A stretch of DNA of 47,810 nt, taken from Mesoaciditoga sp. Its GTDB lineage: Bacteria; Thermotogota; Thermotogae; Mesoaciditogales; Mesoaciditogaceae. The notes under the pieces were generated by a model. It saw nothing but the letters and a program-made list of their open reading frames with translations, searched no databases and was not told the DNA's origin. The position numbers were made by a program, and so were the translations under genes. Below, piece after piece: positions 6,126-47,790 of the stretch. Within the stretch, counting starts at the first letter, position 1. The number at the start of each line of letters is the position of its first letter. Where the stretch lies: assembly GCA_015491995.1 (NCBI GenBank), contig WGFY01000055.1:1-47810 (forward strand), in the 5' to 3' direction.

Positions 6126-7349
6126 TTAAGCCCCGTATTTTTCGAGTCTTAAAGCGTTGGCAAGTAAGAAAGACATAAGGTCCCTCGCCTCGATCGTTCC
6201 AAGGCTTCCTCTTGCACACTCTTTTTCATTGAAAGCTTTTGATAGTCCATAGCGAGAATACTTTGAACGCAACAAAAGAGGCACTGGGTGCCAGCTATGC
6301 CCACCCATCAGAGTAGGAGTTGAATGGTCACCTGTGATGGCGAGCACATCAAATTTCACAGACATGATCTCTGGGATAACTTTATCTACTATTTCTATGA
6401 CGTTCATTTTTGCCATGAAGTTCGAATCCTCTCCATAAGAGTCCGTATGTTTAACATGAAAATAGAAAAAGTCGTAATTATCGTAATTGTCTTTTAAAAC
6501 TTTTATTTCAGATTTTATCGTTTCCATTTCACCTTCCACGGCTGGTACATCCAGAACATCCATTCCCACGAGCTTTGCAAGACCTTTGTACATTGGATAT
6601 GTTGCGATGGCGGCACTTCTTATTTTGTATATTTCCGGGAATTTTGGTATGTTGGGATAATTTGAGAAGCCTCTTAGCAAACATCCAGAGATCTTTTCTT
6701 TCCCATTCAAAAGTTTGGCAACACGAGTGATGAACTCGTTGACAATTTTTGCCGTTTTTTCAGATCCCTGATCCAAAGCTTCAGCGTACATCACCGGTTC
6801 ACCTACACGTTGAGGATCGGCATCTGTTAGCTTGTCCTCAAGTCCATCTCCTGTGAGTTTCAAAACAAACCTGTGTTCTTTTCCGGGGAAGACATGTACT
6901 TTTATGCCATCAATTTCTGATATTCTTGAATTTATGAACTCACATACTTTGACATTTTCCTCAGTTGCAGGCCTTCCTGCTCTTCTATCGACAACTATTC
7001 CATCTTTAAAAGTTGCAAAATTTCCTCGCGCTACGACATCTTTTTCAGAAACTTCCACTCCCACTCCTAAAGCTTCAAGTATTCCTCTGCCTATTTGATA
7101 TTTGATTGGATCGTATCCAAAAAGTCCTAAATGACCTGGCCCGCTACCAGGTGTCACTCCAGGAATTACGGGAACACTTTGTCCTAAATCCGATGCTTTG
7201 GCGATCATGTCCATGTTTGGAGTGTTTGCAGCTTCCAATTCGGTTTTCCCGCCAATCTCCGGTACACCACCAAGTCCATCCATGATCAGCATCAACATTT
7301 TGGAATTGTTTTTAACGGCAAGCCTGCTTACAAATTCTTGTTTGTCCAT
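6126..7349 (-). CDS. apgM: 2,3-bisphosphoglycerate-independent phosphoglycerate mutase, archaeal type (ApgM)
   Basis: 407 residues of the alkaline-phosphatase superfamily. The metal site begins at LMLIMDGLGG (Asp24) and the phosphoryl-accepting serine is in TPGSGPGHLGLFGYD (Ser69). Later metal ligands are seen in FYFHVKHTDSYGED and AITGDHSTPTLMGGHSWHPVP. It interconverts 3- and 2-phosphoglycerate in glycolysis and gluconeogenesis. The archaeal-like ApgM form, about 400 residues, is distinct from the roughly 510-residue bacterial GpmI and is known from several thermophilic bacteria. ATG 7349 has AGGAGG 8 bases upstream. It is the first gene of the minus-strand operon and has a good promoter at 7394-7422. 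Confidence 0.94.
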   Translation of the reverse strand: MDKQEFVSRLAVKNNSKMLMLIMDGLGGVPEIGGKTELEAANTPNMDMIAKASDLGQSVPVIPGVTPGSGPGHLGLFGYDPIKYQIGRGILEALGVGVEVSEKDVVARGNFATFKDGIVVDRRAGRPATEENVKVCEFINSRISEIDGIKVHVFPGKEHRFVLKLTGDGLEDKLTDADPQRVGEPVMYAEALDQGSEKTAKIVNEFITRVAKLLNGKEKISGCLLRGFSNYPNIPKFPEIYKIRSAAIATYPMYKGLAKLVGMDVLDVPAVEGEMETIKSEIKVLKDNYDNYDFFYFHVKHTDSYGEDSNFMAKMNVIEIVDKVIPEIMSVKFDVLAITGDHSTPTLMGGHSWHPVPLLLRSKYSRYGLSKAFNEKECARGSLGTIEARDLMSFLLANALRLEKYGA

Positions 7350-31389: not shown

Positions 31390-31592
31390 ACCCTTAACGT
31401 GCGTGAAAGTAACAATTTTAACCAGTGCGAAAAGGCAATCTTTGAAAAGGATTTTTACCGCTTCACAAGCGGCAAGGGAATTTTTTCGAAGCTTAACCAG
31501 AACTGATGACTTTGAGAGGGTATAAAAAACGTTCATTGAGCAAGCTGTTTCACTCTCTGATTAAATTCTTAAACTTGACGCACATTAAGAGT
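31390..31592 (+). mobile_element. MITE-like repeat element, copy A (203 bp)
   Basis: Terminal inverted repeats: ACCCTTAACGTGCGT (31390-31404) against the reverse complement of ACGCACATTAAGAGT (31578-31592), 13 of 15 matching. The interior has no open frame. It aligns along nearly its whole length with 37523-37755; the last 79 bases differ at only four positions, all transitions. Internal hairpins: CCGCTT-CAC-AAGCGG near 31458-31472, and ATCTTT paired with AAGGAT just before it. It lacks a 30-35 base segment present in copy B. No transposase is nearby and I could not establish a target-site duplication. It could be a non-autonomous element or a repeated structured RNA. Confidence 0.72.
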
Positions 31593-31597
31593 ATAAT
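31569..31597 (+). promoter_or_regulatory. Possible promoter at the 3' junction of repeat element A
   Basis: TATAAT at 31592-31597 is formed by the last base of the element plus flanking DNA. TTAAAC at 31569-31574 lies 17 bases upstream inside the element. The predicted start near 31604 would give a 34-base leader for the ferritin-like gene. TTGACG at 31575-31580 is too close (11 bases) to serve as its -35. Confidence 0.45.
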
Positions 31598-31637
31598 AAT
31601 TGTATCGCTTGAAATGTACAAAAAAGGAGGAAAAATT

Positions 31638-32141
31638 ATGAACAAAGGAGTTATAGGCATATTGAAATTCGCCTTGGCAAGAGAAATAGATGGAATGAAT
31701 TTTTACAGGGAAAAGGTGAAAAGCGTTAAAGATCAAAGTGTTAAAGATGTATTCGAGCAGCTTTCTGAAATGGAAAACGGTCATGTGAATTACATAAGCC
31801 AACTCATAGAAAGAGTTTCAAAGGGAGAATCAATTTCAAAAGTAGAGCAGCCAAAACAAAACGTTAAATTTTTCAACGAAAGAGAGAAAGAAGAAATGGT
31901 AGGAAGCAAAATAGACGATACGGCCTCAGATCTTTCCGTGTTAAGAATGGCTTATCTTATAGAAAAAGATTTTATGGATTTCTACAAGGATTCGTCCGAA
32001 AAAATAGATGACACGAAGGCCAAAGAGATCTTGAAGAGCTTATCTTCATGGGAAAAAGAACATCGTGATATGCTTTACACGCTTTACAAACAAAGGTCTT
32101 CAGAGTATTGGAATGAGATGGGTTTTACTCCGCTATTCTAA
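31638..32141 (+). CDS. Ferritin-like/rubrerythrin-family diiron protein
   Basis: 167 residues from ATG 31638, 7 bases after GGAGG. Two helix pairs with diiron ligand motifs are visible: REIDGMNFYREK (Glu), SEMENGHVNYI (Glu...His), then MAYLIEKDFMDFYKD (Glu) and LSSWEKEHRDMLYTLY (Glu...His). This is the four-helix core of rubrerythrin without the C-terminal rubredoxin iron site. Such proteins act in peroxide reduction or iron handling in anaerobes. The partner electron donor is not in the window. It is preceded by repeat element A and followed by a bidirectional terminator. Confidence 0.85.
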   Translation: MNKGVIGILKFALAREIDGMNFYREKVKSVKDQSVKDVFEQLSEMENGHVNYISQLIERVSKGESISKVEQPKQNVKFFNEREKEEMVGSKIDDTASDLSVLRMAYLIEKDFMDFYKDSSEKIDDTKAKEILKSLSSWEKEHRDMLYTLYKQRSSEYWNEMGFTPLF

Positions 32142-32190
32142 ATTGGATGTTGATTTCTACGAGCGATACACCAACATTTCTTTTAAGCAG

Positions 32191-32215
32191 AAAAGCGGCA
32201 TTTCTGCCGCTTTTT
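32191..32215. terminator. Bidirectional terminator between the ferritin-like gene and tRNA-Pro
   Basis: AAAAGCGGCA (32191-32200), loop TTTC, TGCCGCTTTT (32205-32214). T run 32211-32215 for the plus strand and the complement of A32191-A32194 for the minus strand, where it ends the tRNA transcript. Confidence 0.9.
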
Positions 32216-32218
32216 GAT

Positions 32219-32294
32219 TGGTCAGGGCGACTGGATTTGAACCAGCGACCTCCAAGTCCCGAACCTGGCGTTCTACCATCTGAACTACGCCCTG
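32219..32294 (-). tRNA. tRNA-Pro (anticodon CGG)
   Basis: Minus-strand cloverleaf with acceptor CAGGGCG/CGCCCTG, D stem GTTC/GAAC, anticodon stem CCAGG/CTTGG around loop TTCGGGA (anticodon CGG, G at position 37), variable loop and T arm with GTTCAAAT. Discriminator A and an encoded CCA end the gene. 76 bases including CCA. It reads CCG codons. Confidence 0.93.
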
Positions 32295-32305
32295 AAAACT
32301 ATCAT

Positions 32306-32334
32306 ATTTTATCATAGAAAAACTTCTATAGCAA
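32306..32334 (-). promoter_or_regulatory. Promoter of tRNA-Pro
   Basis: On the minus strand, TTGCTA (32334-32329), a 17-base spacer ending in TGA, then TAAAAT (32311-32306). The predicted start is about 4 bases before the mature tRNA 5' end. Confidence 0.7.
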
Positions 32335-32422
32335 CATACAAACCTATATTTTGCACAGATGAGTTGAATTTTGGGCTTTGTTGAAAATGAATGGAATAAT
32401 CCTACACTACACACACGTAAAA

Positions 32423-33667
32423 TCAGGTGTTATTAATTTTCTTGATCTTCACAAAGAATGATACGATCAACATGATACCTCCAAAAATGGTGAGTGCTAA
32501 ACCCACTCCGAACCTATCTGCAAGCGCTCCGAGTATTGGTGCTGAGAGGGCCATGGTCGTGGTAGTAACTTGGGATTCAACGGACAAACCAGATGCCATT
32601 GTCTTGTGTGAAATCATATCGCTTATAATGGACACGTTCATTGGCTTTCTGAAATTTTCAAGTACGTATATCACTAAAAAAAATGCTATTGAAAGCAATT
32701 GAATGTGATAACGTGTCGATATACCGGCGATGCTTAAAAACACCGCTCCGATGATGTAAGTTACGTTGATAGCAGTTGGAAGATTCTTAAACCGTTTGCT
32801 TATTTTCGATGCATATCTTGAGGCAAAACTCGTTAGAAGGTAAATTATAAAATAAACGATTCCAACGATCAGTGATGTTCTTTTTTGTGAACTCATCACC
32901 ACGAATATCGGCAAAGAGAGTGCAAACATTTTCAAAATGGGTTGCAAATACTCTTTAGTGACCTTAAAAAACGAAGAAAACGTGGAACTGTTCAATATCG
33001 CTGTCATCGCCTTGAAGTCCGTGAAAATCCCAATAAAATTTTTAAGAGTCGATCTCATTTGTTTCAAAATGGTCCCTTTTTGCACTTTGGCAAGCTCGCC
33101 ATCCAATTCCTTTGGATAAGTGGACAAGTTGATCAAGTCCAAAAGATATGGGACCGTGGAAGCTATGAATATGTAGCGATAACTTCCGGAGTAAAAAACC
33201 AATCCAGCGGCTATAAGGGAACTTATAGCAGAACCCATTTGTGAAGCTGAGCGTGTATGGCCGTAATATTCCACCTTTACGTCTTCCATTTTATTTATTC
33301 TGAGGTATTCTAATATGAGAGCTTTGTGAGTTCCAGATCTGAAAGCGTCGCCAAACGCAAAAAGCACCATTGCAAGTGCGTAAAAGTAATAACCACGTAA
33401 AAGATAAAAAAACACAAATGACGTTATGTAGGATATGAAAGCCATTATCATGGATTTTCTTCGTCCAAAGGCATCTGCATATATTCCTGTCGGAATTTCA
33501 AGAAAGTTCGTTGAAAGATCTCTGATCGCGTAAAGCGTACCTATGGCAAGAAACGATAGACCCATTTCCCTGAAAAACAAAATCATAAAAGGATCGAAAA
33601 AACGTAAATTTTTCAGAAATCCATACAGGGAGAATTTGTAAAACATCTTATCTCTTTTAAAGCTCAA
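32423..33667 (-). CDS. Major facilitator superfamily transporter
   Basis: About 414 residues from TTG 33667 (AAGGTG upstream; a GTG at 33676 overlaps that site and an ATG at 33646 is another option). Around 12 hydrophobic helices. The MFS loop motif between helices 2 and 3 reads GIYADAFGRRKSMIM and its second-half relative is GALADRFGVGL. N-terminal features (FDPFMILFFREMGLSFLAIGTLYAIRDLSTNFLEIPTG) resemble the MFS group often annotated as drug or metabolite efflux. Substrate unknown. It is monocistronic and divergent from the AI-2E-family gene; the two promoters overlap at 33735-33765. Confidence 0.85.
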   Translation of the reverse strand: MSFKRDKMFYKFSLYGFLKNLRFFDPFMILFFREMGLSFLAIGTLYAIRDLSTNFLEIPTGIYADAFGRRKSMIMAFISYITSFVFFYLLRGYYFYALAMVLFAFGDAFRSGTHKALILEYLRINKMEDVKVEYYGHTRSASQMGSAISSLIAAGLVFYSGSYRYIFIASTVPYLLDLINLSTYPKELDGELAKVQKGTILKQMRSTLKNFIGIFTDFKAMTAILNSSTFSSFFKVTKEYLQPILKMFALSLPIFVVMSSQKRTSLIVGIVYFIIYLLTSFASRYASKISKRFKNLPTAINVTYIIGAVFLSIAGISTRYHIQLLSIAFFLVIYVLENFRKPMNVSIISDMISHKTMASGLSVESQVTTTTMALSAPILGALADRFGVGLALTIFGGIMLIVSFFVKIKKINNT

Positions 33668-33734
33668 TGCTCCCACCTTTTCGTCATGTATTTTCTACCA
33701 AATGTGCCAAATTCAACGAATGCTGAGTGAGTAT

Positions 33735-33743
33735 ATTTTAACA
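33735..33743 (-). promoter_or_regulatory. Extended -10 promoter of the MFS gene
   Basis: The minus strand reads TGTTAAAAT (33743-33735), an extended -10 without a clear -35. The predicted start is near 33728. It overlaps the -35 region of the divergent promoter, so the two may compete for polymerase. Confidence 0.45.
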
Positions 33744-33765
33744 CTTCATTCAAGAATGGTATAAT
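33737..33765 (+). promoter_or_regulatory. Promoter of the AI-2E-family transporter gene
   Basis: TTTAAC (33737-33742), a 17-base spacer ending in TGG, and TATAAT (33760-33765). The TGGTATAAT extended -10 is identical to that before the ABC-F gene at 37813-37821. Confidence 0.65.
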
Positions 33766-33801
33766 CTTTCAAAGAGTTTAAAAAGCGAAGGGCGGTTGAA
33801 G

Positions 33802-34821
33802 ATGCGTCTTAGTTTAGAAAAGAGAACGACGCTCATGGTTTTCATTTACCTGATCGTTTTTTTGATGACGGGAGGGATTTTGCCACGGGTTTTCGATGTT
33901 ATCGTGGTTTCTTTTTTTGTGGCTTTGATGCTGGAGCCCGTTTCCAACTGGATCTACCTCAAAACCAATAAAAAATCCCTTTCCATAACCCTTTCTTTGA
34001 TCCTATTTTACGGATTTGTGAGCCTTGTTATAAGTTTTTTGGTGCCAGTTATATACGATGAGGGAAGGTATTTCATAGATTTCGTTCAGAGATTTTTTTC
34101 CAATGAAGAGTGGAAAAATTTTTCGTATTTCAAAAATTATCCGGATATTAAAAGTTTTGCCGAGCACGCTATGAATTACGCTACTCCAAATTTGACTAAA
34201 TGGATGTCCCAAACACTCGCGAAGTTTGCTCTTGGTGTGCCTTCCATGTTAACAGTTGTCTTTTTTTCTATTTTGGGATCTATCTATGTCTCTTATGGTC
34301 TTGAAAAATTCAAAAAAATTGCGCCGACTTACTTTTTTCCAATGAGCTCATCACGAATGGTCAAAATATTTTTAAAAAGATCTTACCATCATATGCAGAA
34401 TTACATAGTTGGTGTGACTATTGCAGCCATTTTTACCGCACTTTCAATGGGAATGTTTTTGACGATAGTTGGAACAAAATACACGCTTCTTCTTGGAACA
34501 TGGGTTTTCATAACGAATTACATTCCAATAGTTGGCGTTTTCCTTGAAATAATTCCCCTTGCCCTTGCCACGTTGATGAAAGGAACAGCGATGTTCATAT
34601 GGTTTTGGATAGTGCTAATAGCCGTTCATTCGACAGCATTCATCATATTTGTCAAAGCAGTTCAAAGCAAATCAAAACTGAATCCTTTCTGGATGATACT
34701 GGCTATAATAGTTTTCACACAGATTTTTGGACCCATAGGGGCTTTTATGGCCGTTCCTCTTATGATAGTGCTAAAGGATTATTGGGACGTTTTTATCGTC
34801 CCATATTTGAAAACTTCCTGA
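33802..34821 (+). CDS. AI-2E/PerM family membrane transporter
   Basis: 339 residues from ATG 33802, behind AAGGGCGG. About seven to eight membrane helices. Typical PerM/AI-2E stretches are VIVVSFFVALMLEPVSNWI at the start, HHMQNYIVGVTIAAIFTALSMGMFLTIVGTKYTLLLGTWVFITNYIPIVGVFLEIIPLALATLMKG in the core, and IFGPIGAFMAVPLMIVLKDYWD at the end. Family members include autoinducer-2 exporters and Na+/H+ antiporters, so function is open. The 3' end overlaps the convergent membrane-protein gene by 29 bases. Confidence 0.88.
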   Translation: MRLSLEKRTTLMVFIYLIVFLMTGGILPRVFDVIVVSFFVALMLEPVSNWIYLKTNKKSLSITLSLILFYGFVSLVISFLVPVIYDEGRYFIDFVQRFFSNEEWKNFSYFKNYPDIKSFAEHAMNYATPNLTKWMSQTLAKFALGVPSMLTVVFFSILGSIYVSYGLEKFKKIAPTYFFPMSSSRMVKIFLKRSYHHMQNYIVGVTIAAIFTALSMGMFLTIVGTKYTLLLGTWVFITNYIPIVGVFLEIIPLALATLMKGTAMFIWFWIVLIAVHSTAFIIFVKAVQSKSKLNPFWMILAIIVFTQIFGPIGAFMAVPLMIVLKDYWDVFIVPYLKTS

Positions 34822-35305
34822 TGAATTTTTTATACCACAAAATCGCATATTCTACCATTCTTTCATATAGGAGTAAAGCTACCACACTAAGGGCTAAAGT
34901 TGCAATTTCGAAATAGCTTTCTTCTATTTTCATTAGGAATTTCAACAGCAAGTAAAATACGATTGAAAGTGCTACGAGGATCAACCATCTAATCCCTATT
35001 TGTAAAAATTTTCTTCCCGGAACAAATTGCCTTATCAAAGTGTAAGGACCAAAAAGAATGGCGAATCCAATCACCGAAGGCCTGAGTCCAAAGAAAGCAA
35101 ATGCCAAGAACAAGATGGTGAAATAGGATGTAAAGGCTGTTTTCAAACCGAATTGATCCATAACAAATGCCAGGGGCAAAGAGGAAAGCATAAGAAAAAA
35201 CATATCGTCTCCAAAAGATACGGACAAGATCAAGAGCAAAACAGAAAAAGCGGAGTACATTGCTCCAAAGGCTATAGGACGCGTTTTCAACTTTTCAGCA
35301 TCCAC
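34793..35305 (-). CDS. Polytopic membrane protein of the J-protein/DUF5685 cluster
   Basis: About 170 residues (GTG 35305; TTG 35290 is an alternative because the GGGAGG ribosome site overlaps the GTG). Five hydrophobic segments are visible, for example [41 protein letters not shown] and [22 protein letters not shown] recognise no family. The start lies inside the end of the J-protein gene, so translation is coupled to it. It is the last gene of the four-gene minus-strand cluster and its end overlaps the convergent AI-2E-type gene. It might anchor the J-protein at the membrane, which is inference. Confidence 0.7.
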
Positions 35306-35882
35306 CTCCCAAGCAATTACAACACAGATCAGTGCAAATCAACGCTGTGCAGCAATTCAAGCAAGCCGCACCATCGTTCATTTGACCGCCGGTGTATATT
35401 GGGCCTTGTCTTCTTGATGTTTTTCGAATGGTTTCATACGCTTGGGCGTATTCGGTATTATCGGGACGTGCGTCATGAGCTCGCTTTATATATTCGTAAG
35501 CTTTATCATACCATCCGCGCTGAGCGTATATTATTCCGTTCAAGAAATACCAATCGGGATTGGTTTTGTCTGAAATTTTAATCAAAAGATCTTCGGCTCC
35601 GTAAAGATCACCCGACTGCATTTTCTGTCTTACTTGGGCGTAAATGCCATCATCATCCGTAGAATATGTAGACGTGGAGGATGTATCACCATCATCATGG
35701 TTTAAAAGGTACGTGTAAGCTTCGTTTATTTCTTTCATCTTTTCCTCTGCAAGTTTGAGCATATCCGAATTTGATTGGAACTTATCAGGATGATAGCGTT
35801 TTACAAGTTCTCTGTAAGCTTTTCGGATATCATCTTTGCTTGCGCCCTTCGTAACTCCAAGGACTTCGTAAGGATCTTTCAA
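35295..35882 (-). CDS. J-domain protein with TPR-like repeat and C-terminal cysteine string
   Basis: 195 residues from TTG 35882 (AAGGAG 9 bases upstream). Residues 1-62 are a J domain: [33 protein letters not shown], with the HPD motif at 31-33 that stimulates DnaK. A Ser/Thr/Asp-rich linker (about 63-80) leads to a TPR-like helical part ([13 protein letters not shown]...[34 protein letters not shown]). The last 22 residues hold eight cysteines (C-x2-CC-x4-C-x3-CC-x-C-x4-C). The zinc-finger core of classic DnaJ is absent. The tail could bind metal, form disulfides or be lipid-modified. It follows the DUF5685-like gene after 4 bases. Confidence 0.88.
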
Positions 35883-35886
35883 CTTT

Positions 35887-36744
35887 TTACGCTCCTTTCT
35901 TTTGTTCGATGTTTAAAATTGCCGACGTAACTTTGGGTATCCCGTAGAATATCACGTTTTCTATGAGCGTGGAGTTTCTTATTATTTTTCCTTCTAATTT
36001 AGAGAACTCCTCTTGCATTCTTTGAAGGAGAAAGCGTATGGACGACTCCTCATTTTTTTTAACAAAGTCAATCAATTCCAAAAAATCGTCTTGAGAAAAG
36101 TGGATTTTGTACTTCGAGACATAAGGGTTGTAAGAAGATTTTTTTGCGTCTTCTTTCATGTCATCAAGTGCATCGATTAGATAAACCCAACGTCCTATAA
36201 GATGGAGCAGTAGCGCCGTTTCATTGGGAAATTTTGCCCATTTCACCATCGAGCTTAAAGCTTCTCCAAAGGCATCGGCAATCTCATTGGGATCTGAAGA
36301 ACGGGTGATCTCCAAAAAAACCATCTTGTCTATCTTGGGTTTAACAATTTTTATCAAAGACCTATCGGCTTTTCGAAAAAGTGGCGCGATCAAAAAAATG
36401 AAAAAACGTTTCATCATTCTCGAATCTCGCTCTAAGTCTTCCGTCTTCAAACGTGTTCCTAGCTGCGAAATCTCGACTCCAAATTCAACAGCAGGATTGC
36501 GCACCACCACATCTTTTTTTTGAAAAGGTGGAAGTGGGCATCTGGATTTTCCGAATTTCGGCTTATCATTTGAAAATGAATCGAAAAGAATTGCCATGAA
36601 CGTGGCGTCATAGCTCAAAAATAATCTAGACAAAGGCCCATATTTGCTTGACAAAGATGTACAGATACCACAGTAATATGCTCTGTACACTTTCAGCTCT
36701 TTTCCCTTCAGTTCATCCACATCAGGACGAACGTATCCCGTCAA
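35887..36744 (-). CDS. DUF5685-like family protein
   Basis: 285 residues from TTG 36744. The N-terminus [34 protein letters not shown] matches what I recall of DUF5685 proteins, which often stand beside J-domain proteins in Firmicutes. Cys25 and Cys28 (CGIC) and Cys69 could form a metal or redox site. The mainly helical chain carries [18 protein letters not shown] at 190-207, similar in pattern to the second aspartate motif of squalene/phytoene synthases (D-x-x-E/D-D ... R-x-Y-x-P), although the family's Gln, Arg and first DDxxD are not evident. No function is established. It lies between the thioredoxin-like and J-protein genes. Confidence 0.78.
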
Positions 36745-36751
36745 GTGTTGA

Positions 36752-37450
36752 TCATCTCACGGTGAAAATGTTGTAGAAACCAGCTTTTTTCATTTTTTGA
36801 GAAGTGGAAGTGGCGTTGCTTCCGCTCAAAATGTACTTCATGTATGGATCATGCGCATTCGAGAGCGTTTTCAATTGAACACTCATCGGATCGTGAAGTG
36901 CTATGTATTTCGCTTCCATTTGAGAAAGGGTAACGATTGTTGATGTACCCATGAAAGTGTCTTTGGTTTTCAAGTATTCTTTAAAATTCACCTTCTTGAC
37001 GTATTTTTTTTCTGCTATGTACCTCAATACCATGCTAAAGTTGCTTGGGGCAATGTATCCCGGAATATAAGTTATTGGTTTTCCGTTAGGGTCGAAGAAG
37101 AATATCGTCGGTGTCCCACGAACCCCAAAGCCTCCAAAAAGCTCTTTATAGGTGTAGGTTTTCCCTTCGAATGCGGCGCTTTCGCTTGTCGGAAAGATCT
37201 CACCTATGATGAAGTTGTTCGCAAGTATTTTTTGGACGGTTTTGTCAACAAGAGTTTCAGCTTTGAGTTTTTTGCAGTAAAAACAATTCGGATCCGAAAA
37301 AACCACTATGGCATCTTTTTGCTCGTATTTGGCCAGCGTCAAAACGGTGTTAAAATTCTTGAGTAATATCTTTTCCAATGGATAAGAAAATGCGTACGAA
37401 ATCATCATAGAGCTGATTATCAAAAATAAAATCAATGCTCTCTTTTTCAC
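36752..37450 (-). CDS. Exported thioredoxin-fold protein with CFYC motif
   Basis: 232 residues from GTG 37450, 8 bases after GGGAG. A signal peptide (KKRALILFLIISSMMISYAFS) is followed by a thioredoxin-like domain (DAIVVFSDPNCFYCKKLKAETL, Cys56 and Cys59) and the cis-proline loop RGTPTIFFFDPNGKPI. It resembles the thioredoxin_2/SoxW-DsbC-like group, which reduces or isomerises disulfides outside the cytoplasm. The last 80 residues have no clear match. It is the first gene of a cluster ending at 34793 and has its own promoter; the 7-base gap to the DUF5685-like gene supports co-transcription. Confidence 0.85.
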   Translation of the reverse strand: MKKRALILFLIISSMMISYAFSYPLEKILLKNFNTVLTLAKYEQKDAIVVFSDPNCFYCKKLKAETLVDKTVQKILANNFIIGEIFPTSESAAFEGKTYTYKELFGGFGVRGTPTIFFFDPNGKPITYIPGYIAPSNFSMVLRYIAEKKYVKKVNFKEYLKTKDTFMGTSTIVTLSQMEAKYIALHDPMSVQLKTLSNAHDPYMKYILSGSNATSTSQKMKKAGFYNIFTVR

Positions 37451-37497
37451 TTTTTTCACTCCCTTGTCTTTGAATTGCAATACCGATCGATTAAATA

Positions 37498-37506
37498 ATT
37501 ATAACA
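37498..37506 (-). promoter_or_regulatory. Extended -10 promoter of the thioredoxin/DUF5685/J-protein cluster
   Basis: The minus strand reads TGTTATAAT (37506-37498), a perfect TATAAT with TGn. There is no clear -35 at 17 bases. The predicted start is near 37491, about 41 bases before the GTG. It abuts the 5' end of repeat element B. Confidence 0.6.
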
Positions 37507-37522
37507 GATTTTTCAAGGTATT

Positions 37523-37755
37523 ACTCTCCACGTGAAAAACAACGATTTAAACCAGTACGAAAATACAATCTTTGAAAAAGATTTTTATCGCTTCACAAGC
37601 GGCAAGGAAATTTTTTTGAAGCCTGACCCCAGAACTGATAACCATCTGGAGAGCTTATAGGTTATGGCAGGGCTTCGAGAGAGTATAAAAAACGTTCATT
37701 AAGTAAGCTGTTTTACTCTCTGATTAAATTCTTAAACTTGACGCACATTAAGAGT
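37523..37755 (+). mobile_element. MITE-like repeat element, copy B (233 bp)
   Basis: Second copy of the element at 31390-31592, same orientation. Its 3' end ACGCACATTAAGAGT (37741-37755) is identical to copy A; the 5' end ACTCTCCACGTG is a decayed version of the inverted repeat. Conserved hairpins: CGCTT-CAC-AAGCG with U-G closing where A has C-G; ATCTTT-GAA-AAAGAT; and AGAGAGTA (37678-37685) with TACTCTCT (37714-37721). Copy B also has an extra 30-35 base segment closed by GAAGCC...GGCTTC. There is no open frame or transposase. The 377-base gap 37451-37827 holds this element, the divergent promoters and nothing else recognised. Confidence 0.72.
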
Positions 37756-37812
37756 CAAGAGTTAAAATTTTTCACATCTTTCCCAAGGTTTTAGCAGCGC
37801 ATGGTTATACAA

Positions 37813-37821
37813 TGGTATAAT
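37813..37821 (+). promoter_or_regulatory. Extended -10 promoter of the ABC-F operon; probable leaderless start
   Basis: TGGTATAAT at 37813-37821. With a start 7 bases after the hexamer, +1 falls on the A of the ATG at 37828, and no Shine-Dalgarno sequence precedes this ATG. No convincing -35 was found. Confidence 0.62.
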
Positions 37822-37827
37822 TGAGTT

Positions 37828-39687
37828 ATGATTTTGAAATTATCTAATTTGAGCATGAATTTTGGTGATAGGAAGCTGTTTTCAAATGTTAACCTTTTTA
37901 TGGAACGTGGCCGAAAAGTCGTGCTTCTCGGTCCCAATGGTTGTGGAAAAACAACGCTTCTGAAGATCATAACTTCCGAATTGGAACCAAGTGAAGGGCA
38001 CGTGTTATTCTCAGGTCAAAAGATGGGCTTTGTTAAACAGTTTAGATTTACAAAAGATCGCACTCTTTACGAAGAAGGGCTTTCTGCTTTTAAAGATGCT
38101 TTAAACGCTTACGATAGAGCGATGAAGGGAGCCATATCTTCTGATATCGATTCTTATGATACTTTCCTTAGAAAAGCGGAGTCATTGGGAATTTACTCGG
38201 TAGAGAAAAAAGTTAGAAGGATGCTTAAAGGTGTTGGTTTTTCGCAGAATGATTTTGAAAGAAGGCTTTCCACCCTTAGTGCAGGTGAGATCACAAAACT
38301 TCAACTTGCAAAGATACTTTCGGCTGAACCTGATCTGTTGGTTCTTGATGAACCAGGGAACTATTTGGATGTGTATGGGATTCTCTTTTTGCAGGACACT
38401 CTACTTTCCATTCGAAGCATGGTTTTGATCGCAACTCATGATAGAAATCTCATGGAAAAAATCCCAGATGAAATATGGGATATGGATTTTGGGACGGTAA
38501 AATCTTACAAAGGGAAATATTCCAGTTTTTTGATACAAAAAGAGAACTATCTTAAAACTATTCAATCAAAAGAAAAAAGTATTTCCAGAGAAATAAATCA
38601 TCTTCATAATGTAGTTGAAAGGTACAGAAAATGGGGAAGGGAGAAAGCTATACGCCAAGCGAAATCAAAAGAAAAGCAACTGTACAGGCTCGTTAAAGCT
38701 AAGGAAAATCAAAAAATTGAAAGAAGGAAAACCTTTACCACGCTTAATTTTGATACATATGGTGTAACAGAAGGTGTCGTTTTGGGAGTTGAAAATTTGA
38801 AAGTCATGATTGATGACAAACACATAGGGGATTTTTCGTTTCAAATCCATAACGGAGAAAAAGTGGTTTTGCTGGGAAAAAACGGCATTGGGAAAACCAC
38901 GCTGTTGAAAGAAATTGTAAAAAAAGGTCCGCAAGTGGAATTTGGGCCAAACACGATCTTCGCTTATGTGGACACAGTTGGTAGCAACAGAACCCCTGAA
39001 ACTCTTATCTCAACCATCTGGAAATTCGTCCAGAATTGGCCCGATTACGAAGTTAGAAGGTATCTCGGTAGATTTGGATTTGAAGGCGATGATGTCTTCA
39101 AAAGCTTGGATTCTTTAAGTGGCGGTGAGTTTGTCAGGTTTGAGATATCCAAAGTGCTGCTTAAAAATCCCAATTTTCTCATTATGGATGAGCCGACAAA
39201 TCATCTGGATGTTTACATGATGGAATCTCTTGAAGAAACCCTTAAAGGGTACACTGGTACAGTTTTCTTCAGCACTCATGACTTGGAATTTGCAAAACAT
39301 GTAGCCAACAGATTTTTTATCCTTGAAAACAAAGAAATCCATTCTTTTAGTGAGTACGATCAAGCGGTTGAATTTTTGGAGAATTCTTTCATTCAAAAGC
39401 ATTCAAGCAAGCACGGTAATAATGTTGGATTTGAGAGGAAAAAAAGTTTAAGAAACAAGCTTAAATCACTGGAAAGAGAATTAAAACGTTATGAATCGCA
39501 ATTTGAAGAACTTGAAAGGGTATACGAAGATCTTGAAGGTGAGATGAATCGTTGGTCAAGAGATCATATGAAACTTACAAACCTTTCAGAAAAGAGAAAA
39601 AAGGTAGAACAAGAAATGGAAAAGATCATTGAAAATATAGATTCTTTAGAATTTGAAAGAAAGAATTTGGAGGAGGAAGTGCGATGA
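37828..39687 (+). CDS. ABC-F family ATPase
   Basis: 619 residues with two ATPase domains and no membrane segments. First domain: Walker A GPNGCGKTTLLKI (about 35-47), signature LSAGEITKLQLAKIL, Walker B LLVLDEPGNYLDV. Second domain: GKNGIGKTTLLKEI, LSGGEFVRFEISKVLL, LIMDEPTNHLDV. The linker between them is long, charged and helical (about 235-310), as in ABC-F proteins that reach the ribosomal P/E site. A coiled coil of about 90 residues (about 530-619) closes the chain, like Uup. Members act in translation elongation, ribosome rescue or antibiotic resistance. It starts a seven-gene run and overlaps hutH by 4 bases (ATGA). Confidence 0.92.
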   Translation: MILKLSNLSMNFGDRKLFSNVNLFMERGRKVVLLGPNGCGKTTLLKIITSELEPSEGHVLFSGQKMGFVKQFRFTKDRTLYEEGLSAFKDALNAYDRAMKGAISSDIDSYDTFLRKAESLGIYSVEKKVRRMLKGVGFSQNDFERRLSTLSAGEITKLQLAKILSAEPDLLVLDEPGNYLDVYGILFLQDTLLSIRSMVLIATHDRNLMEKIPDEIWDMDFGTVKSYKGKYSSFLIQKENYLKTIQSKEKSISREINHLHNVVERYRKWGREKAIRQAKSKEKQLYRLVKAKENQKIERRKTFTTLNFDTYGVTEGVVLGVENLKVMIDDKHIGDFSFQIHNGEKVVLLGKNGIGKTTLLKEIVKKGPQVEFGPNTIFAYVDTVGSNRTPETLISTIWKFVQNWPDYEVRRYLGRFGFEGDDVFKSLDSLSGGEFVRFEISKVLLKNPNFLIMDEPTNHLDVYMMESLEETLKGYTGTVFFSTHDLEFAKHVANRFFILENKEIHSFSEYDQAVEFLENSFIQKHSSKHGNNVGFERKKSLRNKLKSLERELKRYESQFEELERVYEDLEGEMNRWSRDHMKLTNLSEKRKKVEQEMEKIIENIDSLEFERKNLEEEVR

Positions 39688-47703: not shown

Positions 47704-47790
47704 TGGCGGAGGCGCTGGGATTCGAACCCAGAAGGTGCAAAGCACCACCGATTTTCGAGACCGGCCCCTTAGCCGTTCGGGCACGCCTCC
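47704..47790 (-). tRNA. tRNA-Ser (anticodon CGA)
   Basis: Minus strand, 87 bases with encoded CCA. Acceptor GGAGGCG/CGCCTCC, discriminator G, anticodon stem CCGGT/ATCGG around loop CTCGAAA (anticodon CGA), a long variable arm GGTGCTTTGCACC typical of class II tRNAs and the T arm TGGGTTCGAATCCCA. It reads UCG codons. Confidence 0.95.

Follow-up and report, generated by a model that had tools for sequence, protein, structure and literature searches.

Decayed copies of a modular, structured MITE family with IS4-type ends very probably account for two intergenic repeats at gene-order breakpoints in a Mesoaciditoga relative

Introduction

BOX elements of Streptococcus pneumoniae exceed 100 copies per genome in some strains. 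They are composite, intergenic and similar to non-autonomous transposable elements (MITEs), with end modules that stay fixed, an internal module that varies and strong predicted RNA folding (PMC3049150). QMITE2 of Coxiella burnetii is, by description, a short non-coding element with terminal inverted repeats (TIRs) of 23–29 bp, 7–9-bp duplications and a strongly folding predicted transcript (PMC10969869). ERIC and REP/BIME of enterobacteria are abundant intergenic palindromes whose pairing is conserved in several related genera (see PMC3733652). Among insertion sequences (IS), the IS4-family ISPepr1/IS10-like elements combine a YREK transposase with 5′-CT ends and 7–9-bp AT-rich target duplications (PMC2266710).

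The window analysed here, meaning the whole 47,810-nucleotide stretch of DNA, holds two copies, A and B, of a new family of modular structured MITEs that shares these traits and is of a known, BOX-like kind. BOX is its nearest counterpart in mode of working, a likeness by analogy that claims no kinship of sequence; it differs from BOX in that its ends match an identified IS4-type IS and that the variable module, in BOX a set of tandem boxB units, is here a single long foldback containing a three-way junction. Unlike QMITE2, it has a conserved core with compensatory changes between genera and families, and, in contrast to ERIC and REP/BIME, its foldback lies inside IS4-type ends. From ISPepr1 it is set apart by the end CTCCTAATG, which does not fit the ISPepr1 consensus YT-AA-YTT, and by NCBIfam scores of the partner transposase below all named cut-offs.

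Results

The same non-coding sequence occupies two intergenic gaps in the same orientation, as the original prediction had it, apart from internal deletions by which the copies differ. The imperfect 15-base inverted ends reported for A were reproduced on re-checking, with the left end ACCCTTAACGTGCGT (from 31390) identical to the reverse-complemented right end ACTCTTAATGTGCGT at 13 of 15 positions. In a whole-genome blastn search, the B query matched A at E = 8.7e-48, and at least eight other contigs had hits with E < 1e-25; the similarity is therefore not due to chance. The limits of both copies were set from the family alignment, and one flanking A/T per end (in copy A, the outer A 31390 and T 31592) may belong to either target or element.

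31391–31591, plus strand: copy A, the 201-bp MITE form without H2 (family alignment, matched to B as above; no target duplication)
31391–31408, plus strand: left TIR of A, CCCTTAACGTGCGTGAAA, one mismatch to the end pattern and 25/30 to the IS left end (window runner-up 18)
31458–31472, plus strand: H1 hairpin of A (CCGCTT...AAGCGG), which forms in the predicted folds of the long form as well as of A and B and is near-invariant in 27 relatives
31507–31508, unstranded: point at which A lacks the H2 foldback present in long copies (alignment with long copies C62, C53, C73 and C50)
31514–31557, plus strand: H3 region of A (GAGAG...CTCTC), placed by alignment; a hairpin in folds of the long form and B, not in the lowest-energy fold of A
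31574–31591, minus strand: right TIR of A, one mismatch to the end pattern and 25/30 to the IS right end
31592–37523, unstranded: block between A and B, with a ferritin-like gene, tRNA, MFS, AI-2E-like, o170, dnaJ-like, o285 and thioredoxin-like genes (tblastn synteny)
37524–37754, plus strand: copy B, the 231-bp MITE form with an H2 remnant (family alignment; no target duplication)
37588–37602, plus strand: H1 hairpin of B (TCGCTT...AAGCGG), which folds in B and is near-invariant in relatives
37618–37678, plus strand: H2 remnant of B, outer arms joined and core deleted (alignment with long copies; no H2 core match anywhere in the window)
37737–37754, minus strand: right TIR of B, matching the end pattern and 25/30 to the IS right end

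The BLASTN check for further copies that had been proposed was productive: the draft genome (a Mesoaciditoga relative, Thermotogota) has about 11 dispersed, non-coding copies of 201–346 bp, A and B among them, and others of these carry target duplications. Aligned, the copies have common ends (left CTCCTAAYGTGCGTGAAAG, right CTTGACGCACATTAAGAG, both within 0–2 mismatches of one pattern) and unrelated flanks. Complete copies come in four lengths, 201 bp (A and C63), 231 bp (B and C14), 330 bp (C53) and ~346 bp (C62), which differ by losses inside the central foldback; a long copy (~345 bp) is laid out as TIR, hairpin H1, long foldback H2, hairpin H3 and TIR. Two contig-end pieces, C29 and C50, are halves of one copy, given that TAGCTTTA at the target is common to both. 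Exact target duplications were found on C63 (TATTTTA, 7 bp), C53 (TTTTTTTA), C62 (TTAAAGTTT, 9 bp from the alignment, of which the script recovered 7/9) and C29/C50 (TAGCTTTA), as well as in G002 (TAGAGTA), while that of C14 is imperfect (7/8). When flanks were permuted among copies, 0 of 20000 permutations reached the observed duplication sum. Given that A and B lack target duplications, these two copies are probably old. The family thus described is short, non-coding and dispersed, with TIRs, target duplications on other copies and the ends of an autonomous element. Searches of a phage collection, a plasmid collection and viral contigs gave no match, and no literature on repeats or MITEs in Mesoaciditoga was found.

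A second MITE type (~215–235 bp) has the same ends, an unrelated interior and a TTTATAA duplication (L033, G000:C32:45014-45230); it is carried by contig ends C45, C66 and C69, and several assembly breaks fall inside it. G000:C49:9681-9987 (L009, L053) is a hybrid with a right end of the MITE family, while both its interior and its left end are different.

A search with the end pattern reached an IS of ~1.26 kb with MITE-like ends in the same genome. It is split here over contigs, the transposase P0001 running from C60:17888 onward for 342 aa up to the contig end and C44 being the 3′ end of the IS; the sole full-length copy, L085 (Mesoaciditoga sp. S142_12), is 1262 bp long and has a disrupted frame. 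MITE and IS consensus ends agree at 27/30 positions on the left and 25/30 on the right, and unrelated 30-mers of the window reach 18. P0001 matches Pfam DDE_Tnp_1 (1.1e-15) and has an exact Y(2)R(3)E(6)K motif (Y269, R272, E276, K283), with D92, D167 and E276 fitting D(60-110)D(100-150)E; this motif and DDE spacing define the IS4 family (PMC2266710). The duplications of 7–9 bp, measured mainly on the MITEs, agree with the roughly one helix turn of IS4 elements (7–13 bp across subgroups). We call the partner IS4-type and assign no subgroup, since NCBIfam scores of P0001 lie under every named cut-off (best for the IS4 model, 96.8 against 250). The IS701 family, which has a 4-bp duplication and no YREK, was ruled out by the 7–9 bp and the complete YREK, and the ISPepr1 subgroup was rejected on the end sequence given above. 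Judging from these sequences, the IS4-type transposase presumably moves the MITEs in trans. Across genomes, repeat and enzyme co-occur well though not perfectly: the four genomes of genus g2 contain neither the H2 repeat nor the transposase, and G008 has many H2 copies yet no transposase match at 1e-10.

H2 recurs in five sister genomes, mostly at 75–92% identity. Counted as a 20-base motif with at most two mismatches, for which the reversed pattern as control gives 0–1, its core occurs 235 times in G002 (2.2 Mb), 54 in G008, 10 in G003, 8 in G005, 3 in G000, 2 in G006 and 0 in the four g2 genomes, with a density among relatives of up to about 1 per 9 kb. A covariance model of the core, R1, found G059, from a second Thermotogota family, at 3.3e-11; its training included one G043 sequence and left G059 outside. 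In the G059 core the stems are changed and the single-strand motifs mostly unchanged, and next to it lies ACTCATAAAATGCGTGAACGTAACGATA, a left end belonging to the same class. Of the 36 clusters in 394 kb of G002, 35 fall outside ORFs (of at least 140 aa), though 87% of the sequence is coding. They occur in all gene arrangements, with a weak excess pointing at the downstream gene that we did not count as significant; the context is one of insertion tolerated between genes, rather than of a fixed regulator. In composite repeats of G008 (L064, L073, L081, L084) and G003 (L075, L219), H1/core modules adjoin REP-like palindromes (GTCATCCTGAA..., GTCATTCCGG...).

A long copy folds at z = −5.1 into H1, the long foldback H2 and H3, and the predicted folding of A and B alone is unremarkable (z −1.4 and −1.25). 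The stem letters originally quoted for the hairpins are right, but the A/B differences offered as preserving pairing are single-sided and so no test of it, and H1 hardly varies. The covariation check that had been proposed came out differently for the two modules. H1 (27 sequences, six genomes) is near-invariant, with a double change in 1 of 7 pairs, and does not exceed shuffles. In H2 (44 sequences, alignment A2), 97.3% of cells pair and 22 of 38 pairs are changed on both sides, counts inflated both by deriving the structure from the same sequences and by the relatedness of the copies; no shuffle reaches any covariation measure, and slid-partner controls pair at 28–48%. Chance is implausible as the cause of the double changes between genera, and the folding of H2 is maintained by compensatory changes. 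The structural hunch was thus right in part, yet the real covariation sits in H2, which is mostly or wholly lost from A and B. On selection at the RNA as against the DNA level, the counts point both ways: G-U exceeds A-C in H2 when cells are counted (43 against 23) but not when pairs are (8 against 11). In its predicted fold the core is a three-way junction that carries two UCC-loop hairpins, and its single strands CACGCT, TTCGCTTTC and CAACC are near-invariant. Rfam covariance models matched tRNAs and nothing else in the window; across nine loci no model hit the elements, and the search also picked up an unrelated group II intron close to one of the sister loci. The tRNA genes of the window are on the minus strand at 32222–32294, inside the A–B block, and at 47707–47790.

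A requirement of H2 for transposition is unlikely. Given that the H2-less 201-bp form occurs at two loci (A and C63) with the same junction, and that C63 has an intact 7-bp duplication, the H2 core is probably dispensable for movement.

In G002 and G005, the 5.9-kb A–B block is missing from the junction and one MITE stands there instead: the order is flgK-flgL-orf237-ABC-F-hutH, with one element before ABC-F (in G005, a short remnant). Because the block is absent and a single MITE occupies the junction in these two relatives, the copies mark rearrangement breakpoints. In G002, the conserved part of the block (MFS to thioredoxin-like) lies elsewhere, with an H2 element flanking the thioredoxin gene on the side where B does so in the window; the ferritin-like gene is at yet another place. 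Recombination between copies would be the simplest account of the A and B breakpoints. Hybrid cores with arms from different subtypes (L126, L211, L214, L230) likewise suggest recombination between copies.

The original prediction had copy A supplying the first base of a TATAAT box for the ferritin-like gene. The box is present at 31592–31597 and begins with the last base of the element (the outer T mentioned above), but its proposed role as a promoter is unsupported, as no promoter-like site was scored there. The hexamer 17 bp upstream is TTAAAC, 3/6 to TTGACA. An element-supplied promoter was set aside, since nothing was scored at A's right end and the stretch upstream of the ferritin-like gene shows no conservation among relatives. 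Near the other copy, a TGGTATAAT motif lies just before the ABC-F start (window 37790–37830). Given that this motif recurs before the orthologue in five other genomes of the family, the ABC-F promoter is probably the gene's own, not the element's.

Discussion

Taken as a whole, A and B are best explained as decayed copies of a MITE, a reading in which we have high confidence. The IS4-type DDE transposase of the ~1.26-kb IS would mobilise both the IS and the MITEs, and insertion would duplicate 7–9 bp of AT-rich target, as seen on other copies. The full element is modular (TIR, H1 hairpin, H2 foldback with its three-way-junction core, H3 hairpin, TIR); internal deletions gave rise to the forms seen in A and B, which have no H2 core. 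Copies may later have acted as portable homology, with A and B at junctions where the 5.9-kb block joined in or out relative to the sister genus.

The original prediction had offered a MITE or a repeated structured RNA. Dispersed copies, TIRs, 7–9-bp duplications and an IS with the same ends uphold the former. The latter, as a structured RNA gene or cis-regulator kept for function at fixed loci, is highly improbable: it could draw on the conserved hairpins, the compensatory changes in H2 and the fact that in G002, G003 and G005 elements of the family precede the same ABC-F gene, but copies with transposon ends and target duplications are dispersed over unrelated gaps with genes in all orientations, the ABC-F site has no element in G006, G008 and four g2 genomes, and the conserved core is missing from A and B themselves. 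That A and B resemble each other through duplication of a gene remnant or of a whole segment is barely credible. One block is indeed flanked by A and B in direct orientation; however, similarity stops at the inverted ends and other copies have unrelated flanks, observations on which a duplicated coding remnant was rejected, and ORFs overlapping A, such as 31506–32141, are chance extensions.

Another reading concerns the foldback, which might be a REP-like mobile palindrome in its own right that depends on another enzyme for movement (e.g., a Y1 REP-associated transposase) and nested into the MITE. H2 is far commoner in G002 than recognised TIR pairs, many H2 clusters there having no recognisable pair with the end pattern used, and its ends vary from genus to genus, as do its surroundings in G043. 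Against this, every H2 in G000 lies between H1 and H3 within TIRs, the G059 core from another family stands beside a left end of the same class, and H1 and H2 travel together in G002, G003, G006 and G008, so that we regard such nesting as unlikely.

To our knowledge, MITE interiors are seldom conserved between genera. A folded core kept by compensatory change across genera and families makes selection on the fold of a transposon passenger a question that can be asked directly, in a modular MITE family that has an identifiable partner transposase and whose copies the window places at gene-order breakpoints. A folded-RNA or single-stranded-DNA role for the H2 core is plausible. We entertain only tentatively that the core represents a structured module of RNA (or single-stranded DNA) not described before, which spreads on IS4-type ends, is kept by compensatory change across two Thermotogota families and acts, as a mobile functional part, on the transcripts or chromosomes that receive it. 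At L165:643-838 (G002:C12, ~6942–7138), the apical core of an H2 foldback stands in reverse orientation between the two arms, as though recombination between them had turned it round.
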